A stretch of 46,914 nt of DNA from a virus, in the IMG/VR virus record IMGVR_UViG_3300049795_000028, positions 1 to 46,914 of that record. The stretch is one strand, 5' to 3'. The notes below the pieces were generated by a model, which saw nothing but the letters and a program-made list of their open reading frames with translations, ran no database searches and was not told the origin of the DNA. The translations under genes and the position numbers were made by a program. Of the stretch, positions 721-46,836 are shown piece by piece; position 1 is the stretch's first letter, and each line of letters starts with the position of its first letter.

Positions 721-1105
721 CTATAGCTGTGCTTTGAGTTCCTTTAAAATAGCTTTCAGGTGCTTTTCTGTAAGCGTATTATTCCATTGTTTTTGCAGGG
801 TCGGGCATTCTTGAAGTGCTTTTTCCCCGTGAATGTACGCGTACATATTTGCTACTTTTTCTGAACTGGAGAAATCCGTGTTCACCTCTCCGAAGTTCTC
901 TTTCTCGTATTGTTTAATTTCTTCGATAGCGGCGAATATTCCCGGGCCATCAGCGAGGAATTTCTCCGCGGCGGAATAGCCTATAATAAAGTAGTCATTG
1001 TTAAATAGTTCATTATGCAAATCCCTGGCGTTAATCCCTGGATCAATTGCCTTCTAACTTTTGGATTCCGTGCGCTACAACAGCGCTGTTGATTTCTGCT
1101 TTCAT
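721..1105 (-). CDS. conserved phage protein (INARDLHNELF type) broken by a +1 frameshift
   Basis: The main frame (721 to about 1075) carries KAIDPGINARDLHNELF and then FIIGYSAAEKFL and EKVANMYAYIHGE. These look like a family of small proteins I remember from Bacteroidota phages and prophages, possibly DUF7222; the name is from memory. This frame has no ATG at its start, only a TTG at 1020, although conserved-looking sequence continues upstream of it. A second frame supplies an ATG at 1105 and the residues MKAEINSAVVAHGIQKLEGN before a stop at 1043. Skipping one base near 1053-1056 (GAAGGC) joins them as ...QKLE-AIDPGINARD..., about 127 aa. The extra base is either an assembly error, a real mutation or a recoding site. 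The segment resembles the start of the 9173 protein (MTKAEINST), perhaps by chance. Confidence 0.7.
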
Positions 1106-1127: not shown

Positions 1128-1156
1128 AAAAAAGCCCCACATTTCTGTGAGGCTTT
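1128..1156 (-). terminator. intrinsic terminator of the large ncRNA
   Basis: Minus strand: AAAGCC-T-CACA, GAAA loop, TGTG-G-GGCTTT, then T-rich tail (A run at 1128-1133 on plus). It lies just upstream of the 721-1105 gene and so closes transcription from the 1933 promoter. Confidence 0.85.
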
Positions 1157-1927
1157 CTATTGCTCGGTTTATTTACTTATTTTTGGGTTGAACTGCTATG
1201 TTAATGCCCAGGTTTTTAAAGCCTGCATTCTGTTAATAACGGGCGGTTAATTGGATAGCGTCCAATGCGCTTAATATTATATAGTTCTGTGATTTTTTAT
1301 TGATTCGGTGCCATAATTGGCACGGGGGTACAGTCATAACCCTGAGTTTATTAATCCGCCCAGCTCGTATTGCCGTATTAAAAGAATTGCTTTTTATTGG
1401 TTCCCTCACCGAAGATAAAAAGCCTTTTAACCGCTTTGGCACAATAACCGCTAATATATAGGCTCGTATTCACTGCGATAACACAAACACGTTGAAAGGG
1501 GTAGGTATTAAAAGAGGTGTACAAAAAACCACCTGAGCGCGTCCGTAAGAGTTGCCCCGTTCCCATCTATTCAAAGTATTCATTAAGTCAAAGAACTCAG
1601 AAAATAGACCCCAAAAATCGATTGGCGGGGTCAAACCTGATATTAAAACTTTCCTAACCTATAAGAGAGAAGTAAACAATGCACTGTTGTATATGTACGC
1701 AATAGAATGTTTTCACTCTCATTTAGCTTGCATCGTTGCCACTGTTTACCAGCGTTCCCGCTGTTGTCCTATGCTTGCTATCAAGCTACTGGCTTCCCTA
1801 TTACCACTAAGGCCCGCCTCCGTTTCATTATAGGGCTTTAACTTTACAGATACGGCACTATTCGCACTCGTATATATGGTATTAAAAAGGCTTTAAAGAA
1901 CGATTATCAAATAATTGCTTTGTTTGA
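1128..1927 (-). ncRNA. large structured non-coding RNA, about 800 nt (candidate)
   Basis: The region is bounded by a full promoter (1933-1965) and a strong terminator (1128-1156), both on the minus strand, and no ORF inside looks like protein. Perfect local helices, given as plus coordinates of the two arms: 1250-1255/1261-1266; 1308-1313/1318-1323; 1378-1384 plus 1389-1397 with 1415-1430 (16 bp with a 4-nt bulge); 1515-1519/1530-1534; 1607-1612/1627-1632; 1750-1754/1759-1763, closed by a GGAA (GNRA) tetraloop on the minus strand; 1773-1777/1782-1786; and 1796-1801/1830-1835. The motif CTTTTAATAC occurs three times (1375-1384, 1505-1514 and, with one extra T, 1879-1889). Size, phage context and lack of ORFs recall the large ornate RNAs GOLLD and ROOL, but membership is not shown. 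Confidence 0.6.
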
Positions 1928-1932
1928 CGTTA

Positions 1933-1965
1933 CAAATATACGGCAATATGTGATGTGATTCCAAA
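1933..1965 (-). promoter_or_regulatory. promoter, TTTG-N21-TATATTTG, for the ncRNA
   Basis: On the plus strand CAAATATA (1933-1940) is followed after exactly 21 nt by CAAA (1962-1965). On the minus strand this is the Bacteroidota -33/-7 promoter with the same 21-nt spacing as the promoters at 7068 and 8427. Predicted start about 1927. Confidence 0.75.
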
Positions 1966-2642
1966 TTGAAAATCGCAAATTTTGATTTTAACATTTGCAA
2001 TATTTGCAAATGAGCCGCTGCAACCCTTGATAATAGGGCAAAGTAGAAATTATTTAGAATGAGTATAAATAATATTGGCTATAATGATGAGGTATATATT
2101 ATTTTATCGCAGATAAAAACCCCTTTCCCGCCCCATATTCCCAGCCGCTAAGATCATGCATTTAATAATATGGTGAATATCTCCAAAGACCTTGTATATA
2201 ATTATGCTTTTCTACCCTAAAAATATACGCCCTATATTGTCGTATAATAATAATTATGTTAAATAGCAATGATCTATCCCCATGCCCAGCCCCTCCCCTA
2301 CCCCACTACATAAGCGCGGCATTCAATTATAAGACGCTCTCAAGTGCCGGGCGTTCGCTTTGCGTTCGGGATTGGGATGGGGGGCAGGGGTGCTTTTGTA
2401 GGACATAATCCCCCATCACAGATTTTTCATACATTTCGAACCCCTCTTACCTAACTACCTGATAATGAACCACTTGAATAAAACAGCTATTTCTTGATGC
2501 CTTGCCCGGCCCGACTTCCGGAAATAAATGACCCGGAGGGGTGTTTCGGGACCCGAGTACCTGGAGCTGGTCATAAATATATTTCTCTCGTTGAATTTTG
2601 CCCTCATTCTCCGCCCAGGTGGGGTGGAGCTATGAGAAATAC
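1966..2642. other. apparently non-coding region; AT-rich inverted repeats and a G-rich tract
   Basis: I see no convincing ORF on either strand. The left part (1966-2280) is AT-rich and holds overlapping inverted repeats, such as ATTTGCAATATTTGCAAAT near 1991-2009 and AAAATC...GATTTT near 1970-1990. The middle (2280-2400) switches to C-rich then G-rich sequence on the plus strand. An origin, a packaging site or a regulatory hub are all possible; nothing decides between them. Confidence 0.4.
2368..2390 (+). other. G-quadruplex motif
   Basis: Four G runs with short loops: GGG-ATT-GGG-AT-GGGGGG-CA-GGGG. This meets the usual G3+N1-7 rule. A C-rich tract (about 2282-2305) lies 70-90 nt upstream, so the strand could instead fold into a hairpin. 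Confidence 0.6.
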
Positions 2643-3366: not shown

Positions 3367-3773
3367 TTTACTGGCAGATTTTCTATGTGTCCTTTAACGA
3401 GCTGATCAATGCAGCAGTGTCCGTGCCGATAGGGCCTGTCCCCGTCCTTACATCGGTCGTAGTACTTGCAATTTTTAATGTCCGGCTTATCCACCACAGC
3501 CTGAAAAATCTGCTCTTTAGTGGGTGACACCTTATGCAGCTTGTAAAGGTTGTGCAGCGTCCGCAGGATATCACAGCTTGCCGTAGTGGAGCTGTAACCG
3601 ATATGCTTCCGCGCCTTCGCCACGACCTCCCTGCCGGCATCCGTCATGTGATCACTGATCTTATGGTGATATGCCTGCCACTCCATCCGATGAAAGATAG
3701 GAGAATACAACTCCACAAAGCGGAGCTGCATCTTCTGTCTTATGCGGGTGCTGAATAGCATTTTAGTCTGCAA
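3363..3773 (-). CDS. hypothetical protein with C-terminal Cys/His cluster, 136 aa
   Basis: A basic helical N-terminal half is followed by a C-terminal segment with five cysteines and two histidines in a short span (CKYYDRC... about 10 residues ...HGHCC near residues 102-124), which could hold a metal ion. It overlaps the upstream Tad2-like gene by 11 nt and is coupled downstream through ATGA. The second in-frame ATG (residue 5) would remove most of the upstream overlap. Not recognised. Confidence 0.75.
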   Translation of the reverse strand: MQTKMLFSTRIRQKMQLRFVELYSPIFHRMEWQAYHHKISDHMTDAGREVVAKARKHIGYSSTTASCDILRTLHNLYKLHKVSPTKEQIFQAVVDKPDIKNCKYYDRCKDGDRPYRHGHCCIDQLVKGHIENLPVK

Positions 3774-4125
3774 GGTTTATTACTTCGTACCAGTCTTCTG
3801 CCATCACATCCTGGGAGGATGCGTTCCACCCGGAGATATTGTTGTCCTTGTCAACGATCGCCATCTGGTTGTTATAGTGAATTGCGCGCCCGCGACTTGC
3901 GAAAACGTTTTTCACCAATGCTGGCACCGAAGTCATCTTCGGAATGATATCCATCTCAATGGTTGCCGGAACCTGTCTGAAAACAAACATCCCTTTGCCA
4001 TTCCATCCGGCACGTTGAACAAGTCCACCAGCCTTTAACGTTTTTGTAGCTTCACCAAAAGAGAATGGCCCTGCTACCTGTTTTAAATTATCCATGATTC
4101 GTATCGGGTTCATTAAGCCGCCCAA
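3763..4125 (-). CDS. DUF2829 / Tad2-like protein (possible Thoeris anti-defence)
   Basis: From about residue 20 the protein follows the DUF2829 pattern: SFGEATKTLKAGGLVQRAGW then NGKGMF, a variable middle, and a C-terminal GWNASSQDVMAEDWYEV matching the family ending (W-x-A-S-x-x-D-x-x-A-x-D-W). Length (120 aa) is normal with a ~15-residue N-terminal extension; ATGs at residues 5 and 11 are alternatives. Known: the phage protein Tad2, of this family, binds the cyclic ADP-ribose signal of Thoeris defence and so blocks abortive infection; relatives bind other defence nucleotides. Inferred: the same kind of role here. DUF2829 proteins are diverse, so the ligand is open. It sits mid-operon among small unknown genes. 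Confidence 0.8.
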   Translation of the reverse strand: MGGLMNPIRIMDNLKQVAGPFSFGEATKTLKAGGLVQRAGWNGKGMFVFRQVPATIEMDIIPKMTSVPALVKNVFASRGRAIHYNNQMAIVDKDNNISGWNASSQDVMAEDWYEVINLAD

Positions 4126-7972: not shown

Positions 7973-7984
7973 ATTTCAGTTATT

Positions 7985-8290
7985 TACAATATCTCTTTTA
8001 ATCCCGGCAACACCCCACCCTCGCCACTGGTGATGTTGCAGAATCGACAGATGAACCTTTTAACCCTCGCTCAATCTGTAAGCTATCTATACTCAAGTCT
8101 CCCACTCCGGTCGCGGGTGCTAAGTTGTTCCCTAAAGGTCGTTGCCGGTCGTTAGATGTCAGTTTTCGACAGAGCTAACACATTTTTCAACTTAGCGCAA
8201 GTAACATAACTACTGGTTTATTCTGCGGCCTGGGGACCGCTGGGCGCTTTCGCATGTAAACCTGGACTCAAAACCCTATGTAATACCAAA
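7985..8290 (-). ncRNA. structured RNA or structured leader upstream of the GIY-YIG gene (candidate)
   Basis: No ORF here is convincing, but complementary arms are dense. Plus coordinates: 8119-8127 with 8188-8196 (9 bp perfect, long range) enclosing 8151-8155/8175-8179 and 8157-8160/8168-8171; 8215-8220 with 8257-8262 enclosing two hairpins, 8225-8230 with 8234-8240 and a GC hairpin with GAAA loop on the minus strand (8246-8253); 8047-8052/8074-8079; 8008-8012/8034-8038. Nested arms around junctions suggest a folded RNA rather than random sequence. Strand is inferred from the minus promoter at 8427 and the downstream minus gene. Confidence 0.5.
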
Positions 8291-8293
8291 AAC

Positions 8294-8340
8294 AAAAAAC
8301 CCTCAAGTTTACAGGGATGAGCTGCACACAAGAGGGCTTT
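8294..8340 (-). terminator. terminator or attenuator, minus strand
   Basis: Minus strand CCCTC (8332-8336) pairs with GAGGG (8300-8304), followed by T6. The 27-nt loop itself folds partly (CAG/CTG). It lies between the 8427 promoter and the structured region, so it would make a ~125-nt RNA or act as an attenuator for the genes downstream. Confidence 0.55.
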
Positions 8341-8348
8341 TGTAAAAG

Positions 8349-8390
8349 TCAGAATCGGAATCCTAACTCTATATCTTTAAAATCTCTCAT
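8349..8390 (-). CDS. possible 13-aa leader peptide
   Basis: ATG at 8390-8388, TGA at 8351-8349, encoding MRDFKDIELGFRF. It begins about 30 nt after the predicted start of the 8427 promoter transcript and ends 9 nt before the terminator hairpin, the layout of a leader-peptide attenuator. No clear ribosome site is seen, and a 14-codon ORF can arise by chance. Confidence 0.25.
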   Translation of the reverse strand: MRDFKDIELGFRF

Positions 8391-8426
8391 CCAGATTTTG
8401 TTTTTTATATTTTTTAAGAACTTTGG

Positions 8427-8459
8427 CAAACATAGGGAATAACTTTCACAAAAAACAAA
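8427..8459 (-). promoter_or_regulatory. promoter, TTTG-N21-TATGTTTG
   Basis: Plus strand CAAACATA at 8427-8434, 21 nt, CAAA at 8456-8459. Spacing is identical to the promoters at 1933 and 7068. It partly overlaps the terminator of the upstream 92-aa gene, so the two units are packed back to back. It should serve the structured RNA, the GIY-YIG gene and the exported protein. Confidence 0.75.
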
Positions 8460-44841: not shown

Positions 44842-46836
44842 TTACCCTATTTTAACCTCCAGCGCTGCGGGGTCAACATCCAGCACCACCATTTCCATGG
44901 GGCGGTTCACCTGGATGATCTTCGACTCAATAGCTCCGGAACCACGCTTGTCAATAAAGCGCAGGTAGAATTTATTTTTTATGTACATAAGATCCCCGTT
45001 TTCCATGTCGGAAGACATCTCATCGATAAGCAGGGAAGTGCAAAACATGGCATCCATGTTATTGATAACCTTGTCCCCGCCACGCACAAACTTCGAGGTA
45101 TCGCGCACATGTTTTTCAATGCCGCCAGATACGTGGATGAGGGCCGCAACGGCAACGTTCGATTCTTTGGCGATTTCTTTCAGCACTCCGGAGTTATGTA
45201 TCGCTGACTTTATCTCGTCACGCTTCACATCTTCCATCTGGGTGAGTCCGTCAGCAATGATCAGGCGCACCTTTTTCTTGAGCTTCGCCTCGATCTTCTG
45301 CACCGTTTTACAAATCGTTTCCTTGTTCCAGCCGGTAGAGCTCACCATCTCGAAGTTATCCTTCAAAATTTCTTTGAGCCTGCGGGCGATATCCGGAACA
45401 TCATCGCGGGTGATCGTTTTAGTTCTCAGCCCACCCAGAAGGTCAAGCTTGAGCTCTTTATTCACCATGCGGTCGAGCAGCTGCAATTCAGACATCTCAC
45501 CATTGAGGTATAGCACCACTTCATCCTTTTTCGCCCCTTCCGCCCCGATGCACTGTACCAAAAGGCTTTTGAAGGATCCACCCTTGCCGATGAATCCATA
45601 AAAGGAGCCTGGCATAAGTCCGCCATTCGTGGCGGCATCGATCTCCGGAACGAGTGAAGACACGCCACCGGTATCTTTGTATGAGTCAATGGCGCGAAGT
45701 AACGCTTCGTCCGCAGAGGTGCTGTCCAGTGAGTTTGTGGAAAGATCATCCTTATGCTTCTTTACAGCCATGTTCATCACGTTGCCTACCTCTTTCTCCT
45801 CCATACCAAAGAAAGAGATGCCAAAGGTTTTAATGAGCTTGGCAATAAGATTTTTCGGCACGTTAGCATTCAACAGCTGCACCGTATCGTTGTAAATCGT
45901 TTCGGACTGTGCATCGAGCCCCAAGTCTTCGGTATGCTCCGGCAGGTTGTTTGCTTCGGTGTTGTAAATGTCAATTGTGTTATGTTCCGACTCCCTGCGA
46001 TAGGAGCTGTTCACCGTTGTTTCTATCTCTTTGTATGGCAGATCGGGATAGGTGTTGTAGATCATCAACATCGCATCGTTGCGGTCAACACCAGCACGAT
46101 TGAGGTTGCAGGAAAGGACGTGAATATAATTATTTCTATTCCCAGCCTCATATTGGTGGTGCCGCTGCGTCCACTGCTCACAAACTTTAAATGCATACTT
46201 CGCATCTTTGCTGATCACATATCCCTTAAACTTCTCCGGGCGCTCATCGAACTTCGCAACGAGTGGGCCGGTAGAAATTTTGTCAGGCTCGAAAGCAAAC
46301 TCCTCACTGTCGGGGTTAAAATACATTTCAGGGTCGTAGGACACATAACAAAGCCTTGAGATGTCTTTTCCTGACTTGTCGAGTGCTACGGCATAGTTGT
46401 TCTTAAAATAGTCCTCCAGAGCCAAAAAAGCACGTAAGTGATTCTCGGGACCTACGACATTCAGAACTTTGATGAGGATCTTCAAACCTGCCTGGCTCGG
46501 AGAGATGAAGCATGCATGTACATGCTTATCCTCCGCAAAGGCTACTTTATAGTGATTCACCTGCGCGGTGGAGAGGCCGTCAATATCCAGAATGATCATT
46601 CCTGACCACTCTTTGAGGCTGTCCATGGCGCGCTTGGTAAAGGTTCCGGCAAAAGTAACGGACGGAAGCATCTTCTTTGACTCCGTGTAACGTTCTTCTC
46701 CACTACTTTCACGCAAGGAGATGAGGTCCTGTATGTCTTGTTGATACTTGCCGCCCGAAATTGCTTTCAATACTTTTGTGTATTCTACCTCCGCCCCAAC
46801 GGTGTCGGTAGAATTTTTATACATGCTTATCTTCAT
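44842..46836 (-). CDS. primase-helicase-like protein (BT4734/VirE-N-like plus RecA-like ATPase), 664 aa
   Basis: N-terminal ~40-190 residues match the BT4734-like domain (EWSGMIILDIDGLSTAQVNH, then HACFISPSQAGLKILIKV and ISRLCYVSYDPEMYFNPDSE), related to primase-polymerase folds and common in Bacteroidota replication proteins. The C-terminal half is a RecA/DnaB-type ATPase: Walker A IGKGGSFKS (~415-423), ESPQxx-like region, and Walker B RLIIADGL (~523-530) with a following LIHVSGG. It should unwind and prime DNA in the cytoplasm. Together with the SSB-like gene it forms a minimal replication module. No DNA polymerase is present in the window. Confidence 0.85.
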   Translation of the reverse strand: MKISMYKNSTDTVGAEVEYTKVLKAISGGKYQQDIQDLISLRESSGEERYTESKKMLPSVTFAGTFTKRAMDSLKEWSGMIILDIDGLSTAQVNHYKVAFAEDKHVHACFISPSQAGLKILIKVLNVVGPENHLRAFLALEDYFKNNYAVALDKSGKDISRLCYVSYDPEMYFNPDSEEFAFEPDKISTGPLVAKFDERPEKFKGYVISKDAKYAFKVCEQWTQRHHQYEAGNRNNYIHVLSCNLNRAGVDRNDAMLMIYNTYPDLPYKEIETTVNSSYRRESEHNTIDIYNTEANNLPEHTEDLGLDAQSETIYNDTVQLLNANVPKNLIAKLIKTFGISFFGMEEKEVGNVMNMAVKKHKDDLSTNSLDSTSADEALLRAIDSYKDTGGVSSLVPEIDAATNGGLMPGSFYGFIGKGGSFKSLLVQCIGAEGAKKDEVVLYLNGEMSELQLLDRMVNKELKLDLLGGLRTKTITRDDVPDIARRLKEILKDNFEMVSSTGWNKETICKTVQKIEAKLKKKVRLIIADGLTQMEDVKRDEIKSAIHNSGVLKEIAKESNVAVAALIHVSGGIEKHVRDTSKFVRGGDKVINNMDAMFCTSLLIDEMSSDMENGDLMYIKNKFYLRFIDKRGSGAIESKIIQVNRPMEMVVLDVDPAALEVKIG

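Follow-up and report, generated by a model that had tools for sequence, protein, structure and literature searches.

In the 46,914-nt DNA analyzed here, from a virus of Bacteroidota (positions 1 to 46,914 of IMG/VR record IMGVR_UViG_3300049795_000028; hereafter the window), the minus strand from 1927 to 1128 is well supported, judging from the signals and coding scores of its sequence, as a transcribed and untranslated stretch. We consider the chances slightly better than even that the phage has here a gene dedicated to a large untranslated RNA, new and fast-evolving, which would be made by antitermination of the type used for rRNA. Having a start, a stop and an rRNA-type signal but no protein coding, the stretch probably gives rise to a large RNA, and the locus is unlikely to be an artifact. 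The RNA lies outside GOLLD, ROOL and the other Rfam families. The main features of the locus, and of a second unit elsewhere in the window, are the following.

721-1105, minus strand: downstream gene, phrog_10208, function unknown; ATG at 1105, frame broken near 1043-1050
1128-1156, minus strand: intrinsic terminator, hairpin AAAGCCTCACAGAAATGTGGGGCTTT-TTTATTT with a T-run end
1128-1927, minus strand: putative untranslated RNA of ~800 nt, with no positive-scoring ORF on either strand and with the promoter and the terminator at its ends
1589-1596, minus strand: second boxA-like word GTTCTTTG (GTTCTTTGACTTAAT), at about RNA nt 332
1891-1902, minus strand: boxA-like word CGTTCTTTAAAG, at about RNA nt 26-37
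1933-1965, minus strand: promoter of the Bacteroidota (sigma-ABfr) type; -33 box TTTG at 1962-1965, 21-nt spacer, -7 box TATATTTG at 1933-1940
1992-2012, strand not assigned: inverted repeat with perfect 9-bp arms, CATTTGCAA-TAT-TTGCAAATG, lying upstream of the RNA promoter, a possible regulator site
2233-2266, plus strand: motif B, TATNNTGTCNTATAATNNNNATTATGTTAAATAG, a conserved 34-bp DNA element beside the RNA, in single copy
7976 to ~8420-8430, minus strand: second ORF-less stretch; promoter at 8427-8459, boxA-like word GTTCTTAA at 8414-8421

The first-pass annotation of this DNA had described a promoter of the form TTTG-N21-TATATTTG and a strong intrinsic terminator around ~800 nt with no credible ORF. 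Each of these was confirmed: the promoter stands at 1933-1965 on the minus strand, the terminator hairpin and its T-run at 1128-1156, and the hexamer coding scores of the stretch are negative on both strands. From the promoter position, the start site of the RNA is expected near 1927. The Bacteroidota promoter consensus is TTTG / TAnnTTTG (PMC7366714). Sites of the form TTTG-N18-22-TAnnTTTG occur eight times in the window versus 1.4 expected (at least eight in 0 of 100 shuffles), so the phage probably uses this type of promoter. Hairpins like that of the terminator are also common elsewhere. Altogether, we regard transcription of the ~800-nt stretch as likely.

Coding potential was scored by hexamer, with long ORFs from the window and its relatives as the training set; such a caller can overlook genes of differing base composition. 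All ORFs of at least 35 aa between 1047 and 2607 scored negative on both strands (-1.3 to -29), and the sole positive-scoring ORF, at 2598-2747 on the plus strand (score 4.0), lies ~670 nt outside the RNA. A conserved gap in three other records (L069, L070 and L072) was considered as a non-coding RNA and rejected, as it reads as coding sequence overlooked by the hexamer caller, which can therefore miss genes.

The rRNA-type signal is a boxA-like word in the leader. Its core (GTTCTTTAAA, near RNA nt 27) equals 10 nt of the boxA whose activity was tested in long CRISPR arrays, where boxA raises transcription (PMC7862264); in rRNA antitermination, NusB-S10 is bound by boxA (PMC10931766). The shorter word GTTCTTT[AG] was found seven times in the sense and not once in the antisense orientation in six stretches (that of the window and those of five related species), against 0.40 expected from its genome-wide density, and among all promoter-like sites a boxA-like word accompanied 7 of 98 versus 2.1 expected, a modest excess of about three times background; the count was made only after the word had caught attention, so the enrichment is partly post hoc. 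By a looser pattern, the window contains 13 promoter-like sites, and only those at 1933 and 8427, both more than 360 nt from the first ORF, have a boxA-like word at a distance of at most 70 nt. In relatives, the promoter and boxA pair stands ahead of the permuted tmRNA of L084 and of the L131/L082 counterpart of the RNA stretch.

A longer form of the word, GTTCTTTGACATATTG, was searched for in 84,980 species, each represented by one genome. The matches listed were mostly from Bacteroidota, and 47 of the 113 usable ones lay upstream of 23S rRNA, 36-285 nt from its 5' end, a position that, read from the genome sequences, is that of the spacer boxA. Among the 66 others listed, 12 had TAnnTTTG just downstream, indicating that similar words can also serve as -33 boxes; the first boxA-like copy of the window reads TTTA, not the TTTG of a -33 box.

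The second promoter and boxA pair opens the ORF-less unit at 7976-8430, which lies upstream of a T5orf172/GIY-YIG gene. Its minus strand folds with a z-score of -2.65 (0 of 100 shuffles) and has a terminator-like hairpin inside, and the unit has no Rfam match. It was considered as a paralog of the ~800-nt RNA and rejected, the local alignment of the two being no better than that of shuffles.

The size and phage setting of the RNA had been likened to those of GOLLD and ROOL, and a cmscan search against GOLLD, ROOL, OLE and HEARO had been proposed as a check. The analogy of size and setting holds, but no Rfam match to any of these families was obtained. At the gathering score, cmscan of the whole window matched no Rfam family, and with E-values up to 10 it gave nothing convincing in the RNA region, where several low scores fell on the terminator. 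The GOLLD covariance model (RF02032), which covers a conserved 3' region, gave no match at either of these thresholds, in a search run without a GOLLD positive control; the ROOL model (RF03087) likewise found none in the window, the same model scoring the true ROOL of plasmid pMP118 at 130 bits. OLE and HEARO were not matched in the full Rfam scan. Neither Rfam nor ARAGORN detected a tmRNA or permuted tmRNA in the window, which also has no match to the group I and group II intron models and no tRNA.

Homology searches were similarly empty. No convincing homolog of the RNA was found among 50,697 phage records and none in the related viral records, which were searched whole. Blast against 395 Bacteroidota genomes gave no homolog, matching mainly the terminator hairpin along with short scattered pieces. 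Pattern scans of blocks of the RNA over viral contigs and genomes returned nothing beyond chance matches: 28 matches to the GNRA-hairpin pattern were attributed to chance, one of them within a tRNA-like sequence, and five matches to AATACGGCAATACGAGC were judged from their frames to code for ARIAVL-type peptides.

No close relative of the phage was found among isolates. To find relatives, searches with single proteins failed, and the motif region of the terminase followed by an alignment search succeeded, yielding 47 viral contigs, mostly with amino-acid identities of 42-67%. When the ORF-less gaps of these contigs were compared all against all, conserved non-coding DNA of two main kinds emerged, namely motif B and a permuted tmRNA. 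The latter (RF04321) was detected with E-values of 1e-10 to 1e-7 in L057 (457-673), L078 (3814-4199) and L084 (1460-1711), each time on the minus strand, and similar sequence is present in L059, L060, L067, L072 and L081. Motif B occurs once per genome and was found in six more records, which represent five species (L129-L134); in L130, L132 and L133, similarity extends ~300 nt further across its other side. It is possibly a replication origin or a packaging site.

The RNA keeps a conserved place beside this element. Followed from motif B along the RNA strand, the next 0.7-1.1 kb contain no credible gene in the window or in any of the five related species, and genes on the same strand come after. 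A Bacteroidota promoter match falls within this stretch at +302 from motif B in the window, +238 in L130 and +475 in L131, the last having just ~230 nt of the stretch after its promoter. These ORF-less stretches do not align with one another in sequence. Two of the counterparts fold better than expected (z = -2.1 in L130 and -2.6 in L133, with 0 of 48 shuffles as low), and in three the fold is not significant (-0.8 in L132, 0 in L131 and +1.7 in L129); L129 retains motif B but lacks both the boxA word and a good fold. The window is alone in ending the stretch with a strong terminator; the relatives have none there, and their stretches may therefore be the leader of the next operon.

As separate observations on these relatives, tRNA-like T-arm sequences (GAGGGTTCGAATCCTG; GGCAGGTTCGATTCCTGCC) are found on the RNA strand ~930-990 nt past motif B in L130 and ~955-1000 nt past it in L131. 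They stand near the end of the counterpart stretch or after it, and gave no tRNA or Rfam call. Within the window, the first 20 residues of the phrog_10208 gene (MKAEINSAVVAHGIQKLEGN) are in another frame, through either a sequencing error or a real break. An 18-bp unit is repeated in tandem at 1-163 (9 copies, 91% match) within a minus-strand ORF that runs off the window, and a Tad2-like gene of the Thoeris anti-defense family (PF11195, E 2e-18) occupies 3763-4125 on the minus strand. One end of another record, L002 (IMGVR_UViG_3300049795_000031), codes for 26 residues that match the N-terminus of the primase-helicase of the window (44842-46836) exactly; L002, with SNF2-helicase-like and sliding-clamp-like genes, appears to extend the genome of this phage, or of a close relative, past 46914.

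We then considered the structure of the RNA, for which the following helices are present in the sequence.

1215-1224, minus strand: 3' arm (AGGCTTTAAA) of a closing helix of 10 bp that may form with 1888-1897
1250-1266, minus strand: hairpin ATTGGACGCTATCCAAT
1308-1323, minus strand: hairpin GTGCCAATTATGGCAC
1389-1423, minus strand: 9-bp hairpin GCTTTTTAT...ATAAAAAGC
1607-1632, minus strand: hairpin GACCCC...GGGGTC
1750-1763, minus strand: GGAA-capped (GNRA) hairpin CAGCG-GGAA-CGCTG, of a kind no commoner than in shuffles
1888-1897, minus strand: 5' arm TTTAAAGCCT of the possible 10-bp closing helix, overlapping the boxA-like word

The first-pass annotation had read at least eight helices, a GNRA-capped hairpin and three copies of CTTTTAATAC as marks of a large structured RNA. 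The GNRA-capped hairpin was verified as CAGCG-GGAA-CGCTG at 1750-1763. The helices do exist, but their number is at the level of shuffled sequence: four hairpins of at least 6 Watson-Crick pairs were seen versus 4.0 expected, three of at least 7 pairs with loops of at most 60 nt versus 3.4, and nine of at least 5 pairs with loops of at most 8 nt versus 5.5, a count reached by 11 of 100 shuffles. Two of the CTTTTAATAC copies are exact (1375-1384 and 1505-1514), and the third has one mismatch (1879-1888). A helix as long as the 10-bp pairing of 1888-1897 with 1215-1224 arose in 0 of 60 shuffles, a test made after the helix had been noticed; no such 5'-3' closing helix was seen in related phages, and we therefore do not claim it as conserved.

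Compared with dinucleotide shuffles, the fold of the whole RNA has a z-score of -0.6 to -0.7, and of +0.5 when the terminator is removed. Two controls were scored as well: the true ROOL RNA of pMP118, placed by the Rfam model, gave -1.3, and the region of phage ICP1 that holds its ~800-nt RNA gave -1.5. As these also score weakly, fold energy alone cannot decide on an ornate RNA. What stands of the large structured RNA is its signals, its non-coding character, its boxA-like leader and the layout shared with related phages, whereas structure is conjectural for this sequence, with a z-score of about -0.6 set beside -2.1 and -2.6 in the two related counterparts.

A dedicated gene for an untranslated RNA is the most economical reading of the signals, the non-coding character, the boxA-word enrichment and the place beside motif B, and from these we infer transcription, antitermination, stability and structure, the step to a functional structured RNA included. 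Transcription would be initiated by the host primary sigma factor from the TTTG/TATATTTG promoter. Some 27 nt later, the growing RNA would expose the boxA-like word, to which host NusB-S10 may bind as on rRNA, allowing the polymerase to pass ~800 untranslated nt without being stopped by Rho. Release would occur at the terminator (1128-1156), ahead of the next operon, and the product would serve during infection as a structured, stable RNA, broadly comparable in kind to the large RNAs of ICP1 and of GOLLD/ROOL phages. Weighing against this reading, the RNA of the window folds no better than shuffles, the searches above gave no homolog, L129 has neither the boxA word nor a significant fold, the stretch of L131 is short after its promoter, the relatives have no end terminator, and the boxA enrichment is partly post hoc, with related words also acting as -33 boxes.

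A serious rival, although in our estimate a rather unlikely one, makes the stretch a long 5' leader of the minus-strand operon that lies downstream (its genes run from 1105 to 2), with the boxA-like word in a nut-type site of the phage. A modified polymerase would then pass the terminators at 1128-1156 and 679-695, the former acting as an attenuator. There is no strict promoter match between the terminator and the operon, just 22 nt separate the end of the T-run from the ATG, and successive genes are preceded by terminators; the lack of an end terminator in the relatives points the same way, as does the nearness of the boxA word to the 5' end, where lambda nut sites also have theirs. However, 800 nt far exceeds the length of such leaders (all nut or put leaders known to us are far shorter), the stretches of two relatives are significantly structured along their length, and these phages also have the same signals ahead of the permuted tmRNA, a genuine stable RNA. 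An RNA gene and a leader can also coexist, as in rRNA-like processing.

It is improbable, in our view, that the whole 1.6-kb gap works as DNA, as an origin or packaging region centered on motif B in which transcription is transient or regulatory and the sequence between is unconstrained. This would fit the conservation of the single-copy motif as opposed to the 800-nt sequence, the lack of folding excess in the RNA of the window, and L129, which has motif B without the boxA word or folding. It fits poorly with the strand specificity of the boxA word, with an ORF-less part exactly enclosed by promoter and terminator, and with the significant folding of the sense strands of L130 and L133. We give still less credence, and very little overall, to a decayed coding region or a divergent known RNA (tmRNA, intron, GOLLD or ROOL). 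The permuted tmRNA of related phages and the T-arm-like sequences near the end of the stretch in L130 and L131 could be taken in its favor, and the frameshift of the next gene shows that decay or sequencing error happens here; against it, Rfam is empty even with E up to 10, the window has no tRNA or tmRNA, and all ORFs score as non-coding.

Returning to the dedicated RNA gene, a broader proposal can be made, which we regard as tentative and short of an even chance. In this little-known group of Bacteroidota phages, promoter plus boxA may mark a class of long, fast-evolving untranslated RNAs, including the two in the window, the motif-B counterparts and the permuted tmRNA, with host rRNA antitermination being used for making large non-coding RNAs in quantity, one of them a new ornate class. 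To our knowledge, the GOLLD, ROOL and ICP1 RNAs can rank among the most abundant transcripts of the cell, and none has a known function. Another large RNA, unrelated to these and linked to a boxA-like leader in Bacteroidota phages, would offer an approach not available for the others: it would predict the means by which such RNAs evade Rho, the signature of promoter, boxA and ORF-less DNA would find more of them without homology, and the question could be tested by mutating ~10 nt.

The nearest published parallel is the RNA of Vibrio phage ICP1, ~800 nt between gp139 and gp140 and the most abundant phage transcript (PMC7567579). Like the RNA of the window, it is ~800 nt long in a roughly 1-kb ORF-less phage gap; a hairpin with a T-run stands close to its end, there is no tRNA in the vicinity, and no Rfam family matches at its threshold. 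By blast, the two share one 38-nt local match (79%) and nothing over their full length; the ICP1 RNA is a known transcript in its Vibrio host, whereas transcription of the RNA described here is predicted. GOLLD (RF02032) shares the size, the phage setting and the untranslated state but not a model match, and is often, though not necessarily, near phage tRNA islands, while the window has no tRNA. ROOL (RF03087) is of the same size class and phage setting, and the one true ROOL folded here also had a weak z-score, again with no model match in the window. The permuted tmRNA (RF04321) belongs to the same phage group and in L084 has a promoter and boxA-like leader, the window being without a tmRNA match. 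With the boxA leaders of rRNA and CRISPR arrays, the unit shares a promoter, a boxA word and a long untranslated transcript; unlike them it is phage-borne, consists of a single RNA with no ribosomal or CRISPR sequence, and its antitermination is a prediction. As a putative long ORF-less phage transcription unit with promoter and terminator, it belongs to the broad ICP1-like class; by analogy, the anatomy of its locus resembles that of the ICP1 and GOLLD/ROOL large-RNA loci, to which the boxA-like leader would add a new element.
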